This document shows, piece after piece, positions 22,120 through 37,096 of a stretch of DNA of 64,000 nt. A program made the translations under genes and the position numbers. Position 1 is the stretch's first letter. Every line of letters starts with the position of its first letter. The notes beneath the pieces are model-generated. The model worked only from the letters and a program-made list of their open reading frames with translations. It was not told the origin of the DNA and ran no database searches. This DNA comes from an uncultured Planctomycetota bacterium (lineage in GTDB: Bacteria > Planctomycetota > Phycisphaerae > UBA1845 > UTPLA1). Where the stretch lies: contig CAADGE010000005.1 in the NCBI GenBank assembly GCA_900696465.1, positions 1 to 64,000 on the forward strand. Reading direction: 5' to 3'.

Positions 22120-25100
22120 TCAGTTCGACTGGTGCGGTCGCAGCGGCGGCGGTCCTCGCAGGTCGGCGGGATCGGGTAACAGCCGCGGCGCCGGCCTCGC
22201 ACGCCACTTGTCATCCATCCGCGTGTGCTTACTCGTCAGTTCGACGGGGCGGCCGTCGATGAAGGCAGCGACCACGCGACTAGCCGCCTGCAGCGGAGTA
22301 TCCGTGCAGACGATCACATCCGCGATCTTGCCGACCTCGAGACTACCAAGCCGATCCGCCACGCCGATGATCCGCGCAGCATCCAGCGTGATCGCACGCA
22401 GCGCGTGGTCTTCATCCAGCCCATACGCCACCGCCATGCCCGCCTCGATGCCCAGCAGCTTGGCCAGTGATGCATCGGGCACGCTGATCGCAAAACGCAC
22501 GCCTGCACGAGCCAGCATCGCCGGATTGTCATATACACTGTCGTATGGTTCAAACGCGTCACCTGGATAGTCGCTCGTTCGACCGAGAATGACGTCGACC
22601 TTCTGATCGGCAAGTGCCGCGGCCAGCTTCCACGCCTGCCGACCGCCGAGAATCACCGGCCGCAATTGATGTCGCCTGGAAAACTCCAGCGCCTCCAGTA
22701 TCTGCTTGTACGTATCTGCCGCGAAGAACACAGGTGCTGTACCGCTCAGCACCGGCCTCATCGCTTCAAGGCGACGATCAAACTCCGGAGACGATGCCAC
22801 CGCCTCATTTCGGGCGTAGCTCTTCGCGCGACGGATGAACTCCTCCAGCCCGGCGAGTCGCTTTCGATGGCTGTCAATCTGCTCCTGCTTGCGGGTTTCC
22901 TCCATGTCGTCCGGGAATCGCTCCGGCAACGAAGGCAGCCGAACCACCAGGCCCAGCGGCGAAGCCACCAACGCCTCAGGCATCGACCAGCCGTCCAGCC
23001 GCACCAGCCCCGTGCGACCTGACAGCATGCCGCCGCCGGGCACGAGCATCGCGGTAGTAATCCCATCACACCGGGCGACTTCGACGGCTGACGCGAACGG
23101 GTTGTAGGCCGACACGGCCAGTAAGTCGGGCTGGTAATCGCCAATGTCGGATGTGTCCACCGTGCCCGCGACGGAACCAATCTCGGTGAGGCCCAACGTC
23201 GAAGCGGCATTGATCAGGCCCGGATACACGTGCAGCCCCGTCGCATCGATGACCGTCGCACCGGCCGGCGGCTTGGCGCTGTCCGCAGGACCAACGCTCG
23301 TGATCTTCCCATCGGAGATGACGACCATTCCGTTCTCGATCGACGGCGCGCTTGCGGGGTGCACGGTTCCGCCGACGATCCAGTACTCGCCCGACTCGTT
23401 CGGCGCCAGCGCCAGCGGCTCGTGCGGCTCGGGGAAAGTTCGGCCCGGTCGAGCGGGCAGGGGCTGTTCGATCTTGAAGCCGGGCTCGACGAAGTGGATT
23501 TCTCCATCCACGAGCGTCAGCACGCATCGCGAGAAAGTATCCAGCGGATGACCGTCGAAGACGGCGATGTCGCCGAGTTTGCCCGGCTCCAGCGATCCGA
23601 CGTGCGCGTCAATTCCGAGCTGGATGGCCCCGTTGATGGTGACCAGCCGCAGGCACTCATCGGGCGACAGACCGCCGTAGCGCATGCTCTTGGCGGCTTC
23701 GAGATTCAGGTGTCGCATTACCGCGGGCGAGTCGGAATTTACCGTGGAGACGACGCCGCCCTGCTCCATCCGTGCGGCATTGTGCGGGATGGCGTCGTAG
23801 GCCTCGATCTTGTAGGCCCACCAGTCAGAGAAGGTCGACGCCGTCGTGCCGTGACGGCGCATTTCGGGAATGATGCGATAGCCCTCAAGGATGTGCTGCA
23901 ACACGGCGACGCGGACGTGGTACTCCTCGGCAACATCGAGTAGACGCAGAATCTCATCCGCGCGGTAACAGTGTGAATGAATCCAGATGTCTCCGGTGAG
24001 GATTTCGGCGAGTGCTTCCAGGCGAAGATCCCGACGCACCGGCCGCGGATCCTTGCCGGCGGCTTTATCCTTCCTGTATTGCTCGTGTTCTCGCTGGTAG
24101 CCGATCGCGGCATCAAAGGCGCGGCGGATGGTCGCTTCCACGCCCATGCGCGAATAAGGAAATCGACTGCCACGCCGCGGGAAGTTCGACTGCTTGACGT
24201 TCTCACCGAGGGCGAGCTTCACGGTGCGCGGCGCCGGTGCGAAGGTCCACTCCGCAGCGGGCCGGCCGTACTTGAGACGCAATACGACGTTCTGACCTCC
24301 GATGGTGTTCGCCGAACCGTGCATGGTGTGGATACAGGTGACGCCGCCGGCCAGGGCACGATACGCCGAGACGCTCATGTGATTCACCGCGTCACCGATG
24401 CGGACCTCCGGCGTGACCGAGTGCGAGAACTCATTAAGACCGCCGTCGATGCAGATGTGGGAGTGACAGTCGATGATGCCGGGCATGACGAAATAACCGC
24501 GAAGGTCGATCAAGGTCATGCCGGGCAGGAGCGGCAGGCCGCGGCCGATGGCTGTGATACGGCCGTTCTCAATGATCAGGTCGGTCTCTTCGAGCACGCC
24601 ACGGGTGATGGTCAGCAGCGTTGCGTTGCGGAGCAGTACGTTGCCGCCGGTCTTCCGCGGTGGTTTGCGGTCGGCCTCGATCTCGACGGCGAACTCCGGA
24701 GGCGGCGTCGTGGGGGCGGATGTCGGCGATGCAGCTGTCGTGGTCGGCTGTGTGGAGGGGGCGGTGGTCACGTCGCCGCCTGCCTCACGCTTCGAGGTGA
24801 CGGACGACTCACCGGGAGACTCGGGTTCCTCGGGCTTGTCCTTCCCGTCGGGCTTCCGGTCGCGTCGGTCGGGCCTCTTGGCGGCCATGCCTACGTCGAA
24901 GCGATGTCCTTCAACGAATACCCACTTGACCCGGGCCTTGTCGTCACCGAAGGGTTTATCGAGCACGGTCAGATTGGCAAGACGGCCGCTCTCGATGACA
25001 CCAAGGCGGGAGGTCATACCGAAGAGTTCAGCCGCGTTTCGCGTCAGTGCAGCGAGCGCCGCCTCTTCCGGCAGGCCGCGCTTGATGGCCACGCGGAGAT

Positions 25101-26382
25101 TCTTCATCACCTCGTCGATTGATTTCATCTCGAACGAGCCAATGGCGAAGGGGATGCCTGCTTCATGAAGCCGCAGCGCGTTGTCGACTTCTTCCTGCCA
25201 GAGCCGGACACGCTCGTCAAACTGTCGTTGCGGTTCGAAGGGTTGGCGCTCCCAGGCATCGTCGAAGACCAGGTCCATAGCGGTCTTCGCGGAAGGCGTT
25301 TCTGTAGCCGATGGGCGCTCGCCGCCACGGCCATCTGCACCGGAACCCTTGGGTTTTTCGGGCTCCTTCGACCAGTTGAGACTGAGAATGATGGGTATCT
25401 GCTGCTCCTTGAGCCGATCGGTCAGTTTCCAGGCCTCGCGTGCGCCGGCGATGATCGGCTTCAGCTTGAACTCGGCGGCCAGATCGAGAGCGCGGTGGAT
25501 TTCGTTTTCGCTGTTGGCAATCCAGACAATTCGCCGATGGCCCTGTCGCCACTGCCAGAGCGTTACCAGATCGGGATCGAGTGGTGGGTGTTCATCGCGC
25601 GGGTGCCGCTGTGACCATTCCATCCACTCGGCATGCCATTGGGCATCGTGCATGACCTGACGAAACGCCGCCATGGCGCCGATGATCGTCGTCGGATACT
25701 GAGGCATCTCGGTTGGCGGTCCGGCCTCACGGCGCGCGCGACGACCGGTGGTCAGGGCAGCGTGTTGTGCAAAGTCGGACTTGAGGATCGATCTGCGACG
25801 GGGTTCTTCTCCGAGTTGAATCACGGCGCTGGACCCTGAAAAGATCGCCGCCGCTGGCGAAACGAGCGCAGCGGTGAATCCTTCCCGGCGAAAGTCCTCG
25901 CGACGTGCGGCCTTCGGGTCGAACAGTTCCTCCGCCTTCCAGTGCGGGTGCACCAGTCGGCGATACGCCTCCAGGGTCGACGCGTTCGGCACTTCACGGG
26001 CATCGGGACGCTCGTCTTCCAATCGTGCGCGCTCTTCGTCGTCGGGCTCGGCGCGGGTGATACCGGCATGCGTGCCGGCGTCGATGAAGCCGGGATGGAC
26101 GTTCAGCCCCTCCGCGTCGATCACGAGGGCATCTTCGGGAACGGTTAACTCCATGCCGACTTCCCGGATAATGCCCTTATCAATCAGAATGATGCCGCGC
26201 TCGATCGAGTTGCCTGGCGCGAAGACGATCCGCGCGTTGATGATGGCGATCGGCGGCTGGTAGTCGATGGGCAGTTCTCCGGCGGCCCGGTGGGCAAAAG
26301 CCATGACGCAGAGGTAGCACAGACCGGTAACGATGAAACATGGCCGCGACGCGATCGACGCGGCGAAGTTGAGGATACGCAT
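22120..26382 (-). CDS. Giant exported protein with three amidohydrolase modules
   Basis: 1420 residues. An N-terminal hydrophobic segment (~residues 8-30) suggests export. Three amidohydrolase-type modules follow. Module 1 (~40-530) has HPGFIDAGTHAG where the family has IDxHxH, so the first metal His is Gly. Module 2 (~576-985) has an intact MPGIIDCHSHICIDGG, then IHSHCYRADE, VLQHILEGYRI and VNSDSPAVMRH, giving a full set of candidate metal ligands. Module 3 (~995-1410) has YPGLINAASTLG, lacking both histidines. Each module ends with the urease-type LGSLExGKxADxxV strand. A linker rich in Thr/Pro/Ser/Glu (~490-575) joins modules 1 and 2. Module 2 is probably the working hydrolase; the others may be structural. 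Substrate unknown. The frame is open 141 nt further upstream, but ATG 26382 begins the hydrophobic segment and has GGAG nearby. Confidence 0.85.
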   Translation of the reverse strand: MRILNFAASIASRPCFIVTGLCYLCVMAFAHRAAGELPIDYQPPIAIINARIVFAPGNSIERGIILIDKGIIREVGMELTVPEDALVIDAEGLNVHPGFIDAGTHAGITRAEPDDEERARLEDERPDAREVPNASTLEAYRRLVHPHWKAEELFDPKAARREDFRREGFTAALVSPAAAIFSGSSAVIQLGEEPRRRSILKSDFAQHAALTTGRRARREAGPPTEMPQYPTTIIGAMAAFRQVMHDAQWHAEWMEWSQRHPRDEHPPLDPDLVTLWQWRQGHRRIVWIANSENEIHRALDLAAEFKLKPIIAGAREAWKLTDRLKEQQIPIILSLNWSKEPEKPKGSGADGRGGERPSATETPSAKTAMDLVFDDAWERQPFEPQRQFDERVRLWQEEVDNALRLHEAGIPFAIGSFEMKSIDEVMKNLRVAIKRGLPEEAALAALTRNAAELFGMTSRLGVIESGRLANLTVLDKPFGDDKARVKWVFVEGHRFDVGMAAKRPDRRDRKPDGKDKPEEPESPGESSVTSKREAGGDVTTAPSTQPTTTAASPTSAPTTPPPEFAVEIEADRKPPRKTGGNVLLRNATLLTITRGVLEETDLIIENGRITAIGRGLPLLPGMTLIDLRGYFVMPGIIDCHSHICIDGGLNEFSHSVTPEVRIGDAVNHMSVSAYRALAGGVTCIHTMHGSANTIGGQNVVLRLKYGRPAAEWTFAPAPRTVKLALGENVKQSNFPRRGSRFPYSRMGVEATIRRAFDAAIGYQREHEQYRKDKAAGKDPRPVRRDLRLEALAEILTGDIWIHSHCYRADEILRLLDVAEEYHVRVAVLQHILEGYRIIPEMRRHGTTASTFSDWWAYKIEAYDAIPHNAARMEQGGVVSTVNSDSPAVMRHLNLEAAKSMRYGGLSPDECLRLVTINGAIQLGIDAHVGSLEPGKLGDIAVFDGHPLDTFSRCVLTLVDGEIHFVEPGFKIEQPLPARPGRTFPEPHEPLALAPNESGEYWIVGGTVHPASAPSIENGMVVISDGKITSVGPADSAKPPAGATVIDATGLHVYPGLINAASTLGLTEIGSVAGTVDTSDIGDYQPDLLAVSAYNPFASAVEVARCDGITTAMLVPGGGMLSGRTGLVRLDGWSMPEALVASPLGLVVRLPSLPERFPDDMEETRKQEQIDSHRKRLAGLEEFIRRAKSYARNEAVASSPEFDRRLEAMRPVLSGTAPVFFAADTYKQILEALEFSRRHQLRPVILGGRQAWKLAAALADQKVDVILGRTSDYPGDAFEPYDSVYDNPAMLARAGVRFAISVPDASLAKLLGIEAGMAVAYGLDEDHALRAITLDAARIIGVADRLGSLEVGKIADVIVCTDTPLQAASRVVAAFIDGRPVELTSKHTRMDDKWRARPAPRLLPDPADLRGPPPLRPHQSN

Positions 26383-26553
26383 CAGTAGATTGCTCCGATC
26401 GCCTTGCAAGGAGGGGATTTTCCCCGACCACGATGAATCAGGCACAGGTGCGTCTGCCCGAAACAGACACGCCCCACCATTGGAACGCCGCGGGCGGACG
26501 GATGCAACGCGCGGCCGATGCATCTTCGTCGATGCGAAACCGGTTTGAAATTT

Positions 26554-28732: not shown

Positions 28733-28912
28733 GCTAAGGGCACGATCAGGCGCAGAAACCATTTATACCCTGTGAAGGTACGCACGGAAAGCCGATCACG
28801 GTTTGTACGCTCGCGTGAAACGATTGTTCCGCCGGTTCGTCATCGCCAATCGGCCAAGCCGTTACGCGGGCAGGTTGCGACGGGCTCATAGCCACGCTTT
28901 CATCCCCACGGG

Positions 28913-28918
28913 TATAAT
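28913..28918 (+). promoter_or_regulatory. -10 box TATAAT, leaderless-type
   Basis: Perfect TATAAT ending 7 nt before ATG 28926 of the serine acetyltransferase. No good -35 at 16-18 nt. Spacer cagaaga has no clear Shine-Dalgarno. Confidence 0.55.
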
Positions 28919-28925
28919 CAGAAGA

Positions 28926-29906
28926 ATGTTCGGCGAATTTGACATTGATGCCAAGCTTCAGGACCTCGTCGATCGGGTCGTCGCCAGTTATGACGCCGAT
29001 CCGCGGACGCGGCATATCGACCGAGGTTACCTTCCGAGCTCAAGCGAGATTGTTCGCATCATCGAGATGCTTCTGGATATCTCTTATCCCGGTTACTTCG
29101 GCCGGCAGAACCTCTCTCGAAAAAACGTGCGTTACCACGTCGGTGACCTTCTGCCGCGGCTGGGGCAGGCGTTGTACACGCAGGTCTTCCGTTCCCTGTG
29201 CCATCAGAACGAACTCGACGGCAACTACGATCCCGAGGGCTCGGACCTTCAGGCGCTGCCGCTGGACGTAAAGGCCCGAGACCGGAGCGAGGCCTTTTTG
29301 CAGAAGATTCCCGAAATTCGCGAGATGCTCGCGCTGGACGTGCAGGCCGCCTACGATGGAGACCCCGCCGCGCCGAACACCGACGAGGTCGTGCTCGCGT
29401 ATCCGGGCCTGCTGGCCATCACGGTCTATCGTTATGCCCATGTGCTTTACGAGATGGAAGTACCGGTGATACCGAGGACCATGAGCGAGTGGGCCCACAA
29501 GGAGACGGGCATCGACATTCACCCCGGTGCGCGGATCGGTCGCAGTTTCTTCATCGACCACGGCACCGGTGTGGTGATCGGTGAGACGACGGACATCGGC
29601 GACCATGTGAAGGTGTACCAGGGCGTGACGCTGGGTGCGTTGTCGTTCCTGAAGGATGAGCGAGGTCGGATGGTCCGCGGCTACAAGCGTCATCCGACGG
29701 TGCGGAACGGGGTGACGATCTACGCCAATGCGATCATCCTCGGCGGAGAGACCGTGCTGGGCGAGGGCAGCACGATCGGCGGTTCGACCTTCCTGACTTC
29801 CAGCGTGCCGGCGGGTTGCACGGTGACCAGCTCGCCGCCGGAGCTGAACGTGCGTCCTGCAAGAACGAGGATGGCGGTGGATCACGGTCTGGATTTCAAT
29901 ATCTGA
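28926..29906 (+). CDS. cysE: Serine O-acetyltransferase
   Basis: 326 residues. Acetylates serine to O-acetylserine, the acceptor for sulfide in cysteine synthesis. The N-terminal helical domain (~1-185) precedes a left-handed beta-helix of hexapeptide repeats (~190-300): IDIHPGARIGRSFFIDHGTG with the catalytic HG, then VIGETTDIGDHVKVYQGVTLGA. The long helical domain places it with the EpsC/SrpH-like branch rather than the short form. The frame extends to 28803, but TATAAT 7 nt before ATG 28926 supports this start. Downstream is the FlgI-like gene after a minisatellite. Confidence 0.9.
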   Translation: MFGEFDIDAKLQDLVDRVVASYDADPRTRHIDRGYLPSSSEIVRIIEMLLDISYPGYFGRQNLSRKNVRYHVGDLLPRLGQALYTQVFRSLCHQNELDGNYDPEGSDLQALPLDVKARDRSEAFLQKIPEIREMLALDVQAAYDGDPAAPNTDEVVLAYPGLLAITVYRYAHVLYEMEVPVIPRTMSEWAHKETGIDIHPGARIGRSFFIDHGTGVVIGETTDIGDHVKVYQGVTLGALSFLKDERGRMVRGYKRHPTVRNGVTIYANAIILGGETVLGEGSTIGGSTFLTSSVPAGCTVTSSPPELNVRPARTRMAVDHGLDFNI

Positions 29907-30088: not shown

Positions 30089-31870
30089 ATGCGAATTACA
30101 GACGCACTATCACGAAGGCACCATCATCTGTCGCGGCTACTTGCCTGCGCGCTGGGGCTTTGTGCCGTAAGCGGTTGCGGCGGCAAGGAGGAGTGGGATC
30201 AGTTCTGGGGCAAGTTTCAGGACAAAGGCGAGCAGCCCGCCCCGATGACGCCGGCCATGGCCTCGCGCGGCAAGGGCCTTCAGGGCACGATCGGACAGCT
30301 CGTCACCATCGACGGTCTGCGGATGACGCAGGTCGCCGGCTACGGTCTCGTGGTGGGTCTCGTGGACACAGGCGGCGCGGACGGCCCGGACGAAGTCAAG
30401 AATTATTTGACGAAGGAAATCCGCCGGTTGCAGGAGATCGGTGCGCCGGGTCTGCCGGTCGATCAACTGCTCGGCGGGCGGGACTCGTCGATGGTGTATG
30501 TCACGGGCTACATCCCGCCGGGTGCAAAGAAGGGCGACCGGATCGACGTGGTGATTGAGGCGCTGGGCACGCAGACGAAATCGCTCGTGGGCGGACGGCT
30601 GGTGCTCTGCGAACTCAAGCTGTTCGCGGAGACTCCGCGAGGGATCATCGACGGCAAGCCGCTGGCCCGCGCCGAGGGTCCGGTGTTCGTCAGCCCATTC
30701 GATACGGCGGGCCGGCCGACGTCGAACGTCGATCTGCGCCGTGGAATGGTATTGGGCGGCGGTGTGGTGAAGGAGTCGCGGCACATCCGCCTGATGCTGA
30801 CCGACCCGCGCTACAGCGTGACAAAGCAGATTGAATCGCGCATCAACGCCCGTTTTGCCGGGGTTGATCCGCTCGCGGTGGCGAAGAGCGCCGGGATGAT
30901 TGAGATCGATTTCCCCGCGGAGATGCGAGACCGTAAGCGGGTCTTCCTCGAACGCGTGATGCACACGACGCTCAACGGCAGCACGCCGTTTCTTGAGCAA
31001 CGCGCCCGCGACCTGGGCGATGAGATCGACGACGAAGATGCCGAATACGAGACGATCGGCCTTGCGTGGGAAGCCATCGGAAAGCTCGGCCTGCCGCAGA
31101 TTCGCAAACACTACCTCACGGAAACTCCGGCCGTCAGCTATTACGCAGGGCGCACCGGGCTGCGGCTCGGCGACAAGGAAGGCATGCGCACCGTGGCCCG
31201 CCATGCGCTGAACCCGCGAAGCCCGTTCCGCCAGCAGGCGATCGATGAACTGGGCTATGCGACGGAGCTGCACGGCGCCGGCGAAGCGCTGCGTAAGGTG
31301 CTGGATGACACGGACCCGGACGTCCGCATCCGAGCGTACGTCGGGCTTCGCCGGCATCGTCATCCGTCGATCGAGTCGACCGTGCTGGATGAGGATAATC
31401 TGATCCTCGACATCGTTGACAGCGGCGGGCCGTTCCTGATTTACGTGCAGCGGCTGGGGGAGCCGCGGGTGGCGATCTTCGGACGGCAGATGAAGTGTCA
31501 GCCCCCGGTCATCTTTCCTGATCCGGACTATCGCAAGGATGAACGCGTGCTGCTGACCATGATCACCGCGCAGGAAGGCGACGAGGCGCTGACTGTCTTC
31601 TGCCAGAACCGGCGCACGGGGCTGCGCTCACCGCGGCTGACGGCACCGCTGAACCTCGGTGAACTGGTCAAACTTCTCGGGGATCGATTCGACCGCGACG
31701 ATAGCGACAACCCGACCGGTCTGGCGGTACCCTACTCGGAAATCGTCGAAATCCTGGGGGCACTGTGCAAGAAGCGTTCGATTCCGGCGAGCTTTGTCAC
31801 GGAAGAATCGGAAGCACTCAAGGATGCGGAACAGGACGGCAGCCGCGATCGACAGGAATCCGAATACTGA
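30089..31870 (+). CDS. Lipoprotein with FlgI (flagellar P-ring)-like domain
   Basis: 593 residues. A signal sequence ends in the lipobox AVSGC (~residue 30). Residues ~60-310 match the FlgI outline: GTIGQLVTIDGLRMTQVAGYGLVVGL corresponds to the FlgI rlkDia-iegvR-nqLvGyGLVVGL start. GYIPPGAKKGDRIDVVIEALG, VSPFDTAG, and ADP-rYSVTKQIESRINARF then follow in order. FlgI itself is ~350 residues and periplasmic, not lipidated. The C-terminal ~280 residues are additional: a helical part with HEAT-like pairing (PDVRIRAYVGLRRHRH) and a beta-rich end. No flagellar genes are nearby, so a P-ring role is doubtful; an envelope ring or channel is possible. Start ATG 30089 gives the signal sequence; no Shine-Dalgarno. 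Confidence 0.75.
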   Translation: MRITDALSRRHHHLSRLLACALGLCAVSGCGGKEEWDQFWGKFQDKGEQPAPMTPAMASRGKGLQGTIGQLVTIDGLRMTQVAGYGLVVGLVDTGGADGPDEVKNYLTKEIRRLQEIGAPGLPVDQLLGGRDSSMVYVTGYIPPGAKKGDRIDVVIEALGTQTKSLVGGRLVLCELKLFAETPRGIIDGKPLARAEGPVFVSPFDTAGRPTSNVDLRRGMVLGGGVVKESRHIRLMLTDPRYSVTKQIESRINARFAGVDPLAVAKSAGMIEIDFPAEMRDRKRVFLERVMHTTLNGSTPFLEQRARDLGDEIDDEDAEYETIGLAWEAIGKLGLPQIRKHYLTETPAVSYYAGRTGLRLGDKEGMRTVARHALNPRSPFRQQAIDELGYATELHGAGEALRKVLDDTDPDVRIRAYVGLRRHRHPSIESTVLDEDNLILDIVDSGGPFLIYVQRLGEPRVAIFGRQMKCQPPVIFPDPDYRKDERVLLTMITAQEGDEALTVFCQNRRTGLRSPRLTAPLNLGELVKLLGDRFDRDDSDNPTGLAVPYSEIVEILGALCKKRSIPASFVTEESEALKDAEQDGSRDRQESEY

Positions 31871-35152: not shown

Positions 35153-37096
35153 ATGAATCTACGACATACGTTTTCGAATCGCGTCATCCCGATCTGCTCG
35201 GTCCTCGCACTACTGCTGGCCGCACCGGCCGGGTTGTTGGCGCAGACTGGCGCCGAGGCCGAGCTTCATCGGGCGTATTTTCTGGAGAAGGAGTCCGGCC
35301 AGTTCGCCGCGGCTCGGGAGCTTTATCGCGGCGTGCTGGCGAAAGGCGTCAACGAGGAACTCCAGCGTGTCGCCCAGCGCGGTTCGGATCGCTGCCGCGA
35401 TGCCCTGGCGGCGCAGAACTTTTCTCAGCTGATGCCGGCTGACGCACTGGCATATATCGAACTGAATCGACCGGGGCGATTTATCGAGCAGCTCGCGGGC
35501 CTGATCGGACTGACGACGGAAGACATGCGTCAACTTCTGGACCAGCGACCGAATCAGGACTCGCGCCAGGTGGCGTTCATTCCCGGGCGAATCGCGATCA
35601 GTCCTTCGATGTTTGATTATCTCTCGTGCTTCGGTGGTGCCGCAGTGGCGCTGACGGACTTCGATCCATCCAACCGGCGCGCGCCGACCGGCGTACTGGT
35701 CCTGCACCATGGCGATGCATCGCTCCTCAAGGGGGCGCTGGAAACGGCGTTTCAGTTCGCTCCGCTCGGTCAGAAGATCCGCGATCTGCCGACCTTCGGC
35801 GCTGATGTGCCCGATGTCGGTCGACTGACCGGCGTGCTGACTGAATCGCTGCTGATCCTCGGCAACGGAACGGAGCTGATCGAAGGTGTCGTCGATCGCC
35901 TGATCGGAGAGCGAGCGGACAGTCTTGCTAATCGCGAAGACCTCGCCGATCTTTCCGCCCAGCGGAAGGGCGCGGCAATCTTCGCTTATTGCGATCTGCA
36001 GGGCATCATCCGCCGCGTCACGGCAAACCTCCCGGAAACCGATCGCGGCGAACTGAAGGTCATTAACGGCCTTGTGGACCTGGACAGTCTTCGATGGGCG
36101 GCTTTCTCGCTGGGCATACAGGAGCAGGCGCTGGGCCTGCGATTTGCCATTCGGCTGGCGGATGACCATCGGTGCATCGCCTACAACCTGATGCGATTGC
36201 CGCCGATGACCGGTCAATGCCTGAAGCTCGTGCCCTCGGACGCGGCGGCGGTGTTCGGCATGGGCCTCAACCCGGCGCTGACCATGGCAGCGGCTGATGC
36301 TGCCCAGAGTCGCTCTCCCGCGAATGCGGTCTCCGGGCTGGATATCTTCCGTGAATTCTTTGGTAATGTTCGCGAGCTCTGCGCCTTTGTCGTTACCGGA
36401 GATGCCGGTCCGAAGGGCGCGCCGAACGCCTGCGTGCTCATGGCGGTCAACGACGTCGCCCGCTCGCGTGCTTTGTGGGACCAGTTTCTACGGATGCCCG
36501 GCATTCTTGAGGGCAACGAATCCGTGGAAGCGCGCGAGGTGAAGCTCGGCGAGACGACGGCGTACTCCTATGCGATTCCGGATTTCGGAAATGTCTACCT
36601 CGCGGAAATCGACGGCTGCATCGCCATCAGCGTGACGCGCAACGCCCTCAAGGCAGCTCTTCGCGCCCGGAGCCGGAACCAGTCGATCGACTCCGATCCG
36701 CAACTTGGAAAGGTGATCTCCTCCCTGCCGCGCGATACCAGCATCTTCGCCGTGGCCCACGTCGGCCGGTGCATCCGCGTCGGCGCAGGCAGTGCGGGCA
36801 ACCCGGCTGCGGCCATGCCGGCCAACATGGCGGCGGACTTGTGCACCCGCACGGTCGCGTGGTTCGGCCTCGGGCAGGCGCCGAACGAGATGTCCGTACA
36901 GGTGGCGGTGTCCGGCCTGCCGAATGTGAACGAGGCGATTGAGAAGTTCGGGCCGATGATCAATGCCTTCCTGCCCAACATGCCGCGCCCGAGCAAGGAT
37001 CATCAGACACTTGTCCGCAAAGAGGGCGGAGCACGGCGAGAGCCGCCGTCGGCCGCGTCGACGAAGGAGTCGAGCCCGGAGCCGGCAACGCCCTGA
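35153..37096 (+). CDS. Large secreted protein, DUF3352-like, unknown function
   Basis: 647 residues. Signal peptide (ICSVLALLLAAPAGLLAQ, ends ~residue 30). The mature chain begins with a helical, TPR-like start (AYFLEKESGQFAAARELYRGVL), then LMPADALAYIELNRPGRFIEQLAGLIGL, the recurring pattern of DUF3352-type proteins, with later parallel segments (VLILGNGTELIEGVVDRL; IAISVTRNALKAALRARSR). These alternate alpha/beta repeats of ~150 residues suggest a repeat fold. Function unknown. Start: GGGAG about 7 nt before ATG 35153. The gene ends at a strong terminator. Confidence 0.7.
   Translation: MNLRHTFSNRVIPICSVLALLLAAPAGLLAQTGAEAELHRAYFLEKESGQFAAARELYRGVLAKGVNEELQRVAQRGSDRCRDALAAQNFSQLMPADALAYIELNRPGRFIEQLAGLIGLTTEDMRQLLDQRPNQDSRQVAFIPGRIAISPSMFDYLSCFGGAAVALTDFDPSNRRAPTGVLVLHHGDASLLKGALETAFQFAPLGQKIRDLPTFGADVPDVGRLTGVLTESLLILGNGTELIEGVVDRLIGERADSLANREDLADLSAQRKGAAIFAYCDLQGIIRRVTANLPETDRGELKVINGLVDLDSLRWAAFSLGIQEQALGLRFAIRLADDHRCIAYNLMRLPPMTGQCLKLVPSDAAAVFGMGLNPALTMAAADAAQSRSPANAVSGLDIFREFFGNVRELCAFVVTGDAGPKGAPNACVLMAVNDVARSRALWDQFLRMPGILEGNESVEAREVKLGETTAYSYAIPDFGNVYLAEIDGCIAISVTRNALKAALRARSRNQSIDSDPQLGKVISSLPRDTSIFAVAHVGRCIRVGAGSAGNPAAAMPANMAADLCTRTVAWFGLGQAPNEMSVQVAVSGLPNVNEAIEKFGPMINAFLPNMPRPSKDHQTLVRKEGGARREPPSAASTKESSPEPATP

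Follow-up and report, generated by a model that had tools for sequence, protein, structure and literature searches.

The window analysed here, a 64,000-nucleotide stretch of DNA from a member of the Planctomycetota, encodes a protein that is certainly homologous to FlgI, the protein of the flagellar P-ring, and whose use outside the flagellum is well supported. We read it, at roughly even chances, as an envelope lipoprotein that puts a P-ring core to use outside the flagellum and that perhaps binds the wall and forms a ring. An earlier note, made from the sequence alone, had suggested such a repurposing, and two results speak for it: the window's genome encodes a separate FlgI, and the FlgI-like protein is kept throughout those genomes of the window's class that lack FlhA. 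The consulted portions of the literature on FlgI and the P-ring (including PMC1586193, PMC8298488 and PMC12758564) contain no description of this family.

Domain layout of the FlgI-like lipoprotein

The Pfam profile of FlgI (PF02119) matches residues 68–296 of the protein with an E-value of 9.6e-26 and 90.9 bits, over its cut-off of 25.3, which confirms the earlier reading of the frame as FlgI-like. The NCBIfam models of FlgI stay far under their cut-offs (PRK05303 with 83.9 bits against 300, PRK12789 with 49.8 against 557), and the P-ring sequences of solved structures give five distinct matches (best E-value 2.3e-11). The Pfam match covers only profile positions 2–226 of 343. According to the accessible part of PMC8298488, the P-ring protein consists of an outer-ring domain (OR, mature residues 1–11 and 160–230), an upper-inner-ring domain (IRU, 12–159), and a lower-inner-ring domain (IRL, 231–346). 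With these limits, the matched part corresponds to OR and IRU, and IRL is missing. The protein is nevertheless ~230–250 residues longer than the solved P-ring chains (343–365 residues), close to the 240 given in the earlier note. That note spoke of extra C-terminal domains; the domains exist, but, as the profile match ends at position 226 of 343, they are not appended to a whole FlgI. Instead, a helical array and a C-terminal domain replace its last third (Table 1).

Table 1. Features of the FlgI-like gene and its upstream neighbour, in positions of the window
Feature	Position	Strand	Basis or remark
cysE-like gene upstream, a conserved neighbour in the family but outside the system	28803..29906	+	its cluster occurs in 12 of the 13 family loci fetched
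FlgI-like lipoprotein gene	30089..31870	+	ATG at 30089, stop at 31870 included, 593 aa
Signal sequence and lipobox VSG-C30, aa 1–30	30089..30178	+	Cys kept in all 30 aligned relatives
FlgI core, aa 68–296, outer-ring and upper-inner-ring domains	30290..30976	+	Pfam, fold match (Z 16.7), domain limits from the accessible part of PMC8298488
HEAT-like helical array, about aa 297–425	30977..31363	+	weak HEAT_2 match, helices of the model, Z 7–8
C-terminal alpha/beta domain, about aa 426–572	31364..31804	+	no Foldseek match with E ≤ 0.001
C-terminal tail RQESEY	31850..31867	+	form R-x-E-[ST]-[ED]-x in the window's order

An AlphaFold2 model of the protein, built from nine sequences, has a mean pLDDT of 78.1, and a Foldseek search with it ranks four P-ring chains at the top (best E-value 8.8e-15). 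Superposition on the P-ring with VIA-align aligns 204 residues within model residues 66–297 (Z 16.7) at an rmsd of 9.5, a value so high that the relative placement of the parts must differ between the model and the ring. Residues from about 277 to 420 are helical in the model; HEAT_2 scores 18.1 bits against this array, under its cut-off of 27.7, and designed HEAT proteins align to it with Z 7–8, a level that VIA-align calls common. Modelled alone, the C-terminal domain has a mean pLDDT of 74.9 (47–57 in the other four models), and a Foldseek search with this model found nothing with an E-value of 0.001 or better. A role in defence was considered and set aside, its support being limited to a HEAT-ARM match at E 0.02.

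The call of a lipoprotein in the earlier note is borne out by the lipobox, whose Cys30 position holds Cys in all 30 aligned rows of the window's order. In a wider set of 37 rows that includes near-copies, reading by eye finds a lipobox in 30 and none in six, with one row incomplete. In E. coli, lipoproteins of the outer membrane lack Asp at the +2 position, a rule that may not hold in planctomycetes. The window protein has Gly there, and within the order 29 of 30 rows have a residue other than Asp (Asp in one). The protein is almost certainly an exported lipoprotein in this genome, and its lipid probably lies on the outer-membrane side. Export signal and lipobox also support the earlier placement in the planctomycete envelope.

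In the tail motif of the window's order, Arg is present in 30 of 30 rows and Glu in 29 of 30; the motif stands at the very end of the protein in 25 of 30 rows when counted from the endings, or in 21 of 30 by a stricter pattern. The ending presumably resembles a class I PDZ ligand, and the tail at 31850–31867 and the same place in relatives could be a docking or PDZ-ligand signal.

A comparison of 30 FlgI-like proteins with 21 flagellar FlgI of the phylum shows what is kept and what is not. Seven core positions (G19, G21, V23, G30, V68, D85 and G100) are retained in 30 of 30 FlgI-like proteins. At the rod-facing Lys95 of the mature protein, Lys is found in 18 of 21 flagellar FlgI against 10 of 30 FlgI-like proteins, and at Lys63 either Lys or Arg in 14 of 21 against 11 of 30. 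As the window protein itself has Lys at the Lys95 place and Arg at the Lys63 place, the loss of these lysines is a trend of the family and not of this member. In a maximum-likelihood tree of 89 rows, a branch with 100/100 support splits 67 FlgI-like proteins from 22 FlgI (one from Salmonella); the root is drawn at the midpoint and does not show the true root. By their sequences, the FlgI-like proteins are thus a distinct clade of the FlgI family. Within it, rows of the two classes that carry the protein (see below) are mostly separate, which fits vertical descent. A recent copy of a local flgI is not supported, with all 22 FlgI rows lying across the 100/100 branch of this midpoint-rooted tree.

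Set beside FlgI itself (PF02119; solved in 7cbl, 7bgl and 8z5n), the family shares homologous outer-ring and upper-inner-ring domains of ~230 residues, glycine motifs, and export. It differs in having exchanged the lower-inner-ring domain for the helical array and the C-terminal domain, in its lipobox, in its persistence in genomes lacking FlhA, and in not generally keeping the rod-facing lysines. In the flagellum, FlgI builds a 26-fold ring around the rod. FlgH (PF02107) is likewise a lipoprotein of an envelope ring, as described in the accessible part of PMC8298488, but profile searches gave no FlgH match for the window protein, and both profile and fold point to FlgI. The same portion of PMC8298488 compares wall-binding domains of the OmpA type with FlgI-OR, whereas profile searches with the window protein returned no OmpA match.

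Distribution in genomes with and without FlhA

Among 61 genomes (the window's own and relatives from its genus, family, and order), a single-protein search gave a long match in 59, the exceptions being G012 and G049. A search for related loci that started from the single protein yielded no relative, and the genome searches were all made within this phylum. For class-wide searches we used a profile (A1) built from the window's order, so that scores inside the order are partly by construction, and considered only genomes that are at least 90% complete; strong matches were graded by E-value, with coverage known among the matches listed. In the window's class, all 247 near-complete genomes have a match, with an E-value of 3e-44 or better in 243. 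The other four (G049, G268, G406 and G438) have weak matches (1.6e-21 to 6.5e-8), the level expected of a flagellar FlgI. FlhA is found in 201 of the 247 genomes and absent in 46 (20 of them listed, the remaining 26 obtained by difference). Since all four genomes with weak matches carry FlhA, the FlgI-like protein is kept in 46 of 46 genomes of the class that lack it.

A second class, that of G108, gives a similar picture: in 115 of 118 genomes the E-value is at or below 6.5e-42, while G527 and G531 are matched in part, though beyond the FlgI stretch, and G535 only weakly. These three belong to the 16 genomes of this class that lack FlhA, which divide into 13 with strong, two with partial, and one with weak matches. 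The named relatives that we fetched are labelled Phycisphaerae, Phycisphaerales, Planctomycetaceae or Planctomycetota, and we take the window's class to be Phycisphaerae and the second to be Planctomycetia. When 199 genomes are sampled evenly across the phylum, the long protein occurs in about 28 among the matches listed, three of these in pieces only; most of the remaining matches listed have the size of FlgI or cover HEAT only. A decaying relic of a lost flagellum was rejected as an explanation, since the proteins form one clade and 243 of the 247 genomes of the class, both with and without FlhA, match strongly.

The window's genome does contain flagellar genes. Contig 22 encodes a separate, full-length FlgI (E-value 1.6e-70) with FlgH and FlgA beside it, and FlhA is encoded on contig 40. 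The earlier note had named a flagellar cluster lacking any other FlgI as the finding that would speak against a repurposed protein, and this was looked for; the cluster has an FlgI of its own.

The flagellum-less state of other genomes was judged by the absence of FlhA; a separate pair of searches, for FlgH and FlhA, covered 80 of 88 intended genomes. In 36 of the genomes without FlhA (the 20 listed of the window's class and all 16 of the second class), FlgI and its chaperone FlgA were searched in addition. Exactly one FlgI-family match was found in 34 of them and none in G531 and G535; no full-length FlgI turned up in the 36, as no match extends past profile position 237 of 343. At an E-value of 0.001, FlgA was not found in 34 of these 36 genomes and was marginal in two (G287 and G484). 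By comparison, four FlhA-bearing controls (G000, G108, G202 and G062) each have a full-length FlgI besides the FlgI-like protein, and all four have FlgA (6e-16 or better). In G187 (one contig, 99% complete), FlgH, FlhA and FlgA all give no match, and the single FlgI-family match is the FlgI-like lipoprotein.

The occurrence of the protein in genomes without FlhA, without full FlgI, and (in 34 of 36) without FlgA indicates that it probably has an envelope job outside the flagellum. That it is not restricted to flagellar use is, in our view, close to certain; in FlhA-bearing genomes it may have a flagellar side-role. Two side observations concern flagellar families. Ten genomes (G181, G455, G463, G466, G469, G485, G489, G509, G517 and G524) have a second, partial FlhA match at about profile positions 309–656, in a frame of about 505–533 residues. 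Furthermore, contig 1 of G108 encodes a third FlgI-family protein (5474999–5475817, in a 610-residue frame) in addition to its flagellar FlgI and to the copy linked to smc.

Gene order and the link to smc

On one side, the gene is accompanied by an amidohydrolase fusion, UppS, PurA, and a hexapeptide protein called cysE-like from its sequence (Hexapep 25.8 bits, just under the cut-off of 27); on the other lie an AlgX/SGNH-like protein, a PMT_2 glycosyltransferase, a protein without a Pfam match, and a carbamoyltransferase. None of these eight neighbours, scanned within about 8 kb, has a flagellar Pfam match, in line with the earlier note, which saw no flagellar neighbours. Across 13 loci of the window's family, the cysE-like gene lies upstream in 12, and purA and uppS are present in nine. 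Two further observations from the window are a 1467-residue protein (22120–26523, reverse strand) with three amidohydrolase stretches, apparently a fusion, and a 647-residue reading (35153–37096, forward strand) without a Pfam match at E 0.001.

Elsewhere, the neighbour that recurs is another gene. Among 39 loci, a large protein (about 1180–1410 residues) is encoded directly downstream in 17, and the three members scanned are SMC. A further kept partner was rejected: no other neighbour cluster exceeds 12 of the 39 loci, and the one that reaches 12 is the cysE-like gene of the window's family. In a sample of 80 genomes, hand-picked among those with listed coordinates and hence not random, smc lies directly downstream on the same strand in 51 of the 62 genomes outside the window's order (31 of 39 plus 20 of 23), with 44–675 bases between the edges of the matches. 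In the remaining 11, smc is found 4–5 kb downstream on the same strand in three and on another contig in six, and no SMC over the SMC_prok cut-off was found in two (G461 and G506, 93 and 99% complete), both of which have the FlgI-like protein. Inside the window's order, smc is adjacent in just one of 18 genomes, and the window's own genome is without the link. The pair is kept in genomes lacking FlhA, for instance G187, G293 and G298. This apparently old gene order points to expression together with chromosome maintenance more than to contact between the proteins, and linkage to a housekeeping gene such as smc can be regulatory or historical. In G459 (contig 1, 5880473–5885410), three 82-residue frames that match only the C-terminal end of SMC lie within 6 kb downstream of smc.

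Possible roles in the envelope

In the reading that we prefer, the lipid of the protein would sit in the outer membrane and the outer-ring domain would contact peptidoglycan, as proposed for the P-ring; by this analogy, contact with the wall seems evenly poised. The beta-rich upper-inner-ring domain could pack side by side with its neighbours into a ring or arc, which we hold to be possible though short of an even bet, and the helical array and C-terminal domain, at the position of the lower ring, might hold a partner. Several findings count against this reading: the IRL domain of the inner P-ring is missing, Lys and Arg are still found at the places of Lys95 and Lys63 in the window protein, six of the 37 rows in the wider set are without a lipobox, smc is adjacent in only one of 18 genomes of the order, and the long protein occurs in only about 28 of the 199 sampled genomes among the matches listed. 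The missing IRL would suit a wall tether that forms no ring, in which monomers or small oligomers, lipid-anchored in the outer membrane, hold peptidoglycan with the outer-ring domain on the model of the OmpA/Pal-type proteins. The lipobox and the likening of FlgI-OR to OmpA-type wall-binding domains (in the accessible part of PMC8298488) agree with such a tether, but the domain that packs between P-ring neighbours is kept together with its glycines, and we regard the tether as a serious but rather unlikely alternative.

Other roles appear far less probable. An accessory ring of the flagellar motor would agree with the homology to FlgI and with FlhA in 201 of 247 class genomes; as the only role it is contradicted by the 46 genomes that keep the protein without FlhA, while the four genomes with weak matches all have FlhA and no flagellar gene was found among the eight neighbours, so that we give it very little credence. 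Hardly any remains for a component of the crateriform structures, which are outer-membrane complexes that touch the inner membrane (in the portion of PMC5394234 available). Of the second class, 115 of 118 genomes carry the protein. It is, however, equally common in the window's class (243 of 247), which we take to be Phycisphaerae, and no such structures were seen in the Phycisphaerae strain studied in PMC7783415 (as far as the accessible part of that source goes), so that this idea fits poorly. Near-universality, export, a fold derived from a ring, and linkage to smc together make a cell-cycle role tempting to consider, all the more as all Planctomycetes have lost ftsZ according to the accessible part of PMC10632474: the protein would be a ring or scaffold for division or chromosome segregation without FtsZ, timed with SMC. 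Both the near-universality in two classes (243 of 247 and 115 of 118) and the downstream smc in 51 of 62 genomes outside the order, FlhA-less ones included, are in its favour; yet 17 of the 18 genomes of the order lack the link, two protein-bearing genomes have no SMC over the cut-off, and gene order alone shows no function, which leaves a role in division or segregation improbable. A specific form of it, in which an annulus derived from the P-ring would be co-expressed with SMC and sit where the cell divides or buds, keeping hold of wall and outer membrane during chromosome clearance and separation of the daughter, is a long shot.

If the preferred reading of a reused, non-flagellar P-ring core is true, two large classes, in which little is understood about the envelope and about division without FtsZ, have turned a flagellar ring fold into a near-universal component of their envelope. 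The FlgI-like protein, being conserved, would then offer a target for deletion and localisation experiments in Planctopirus limnophila. For genome annotation, an FlgI label in these genomes is no proof of a flagellum.
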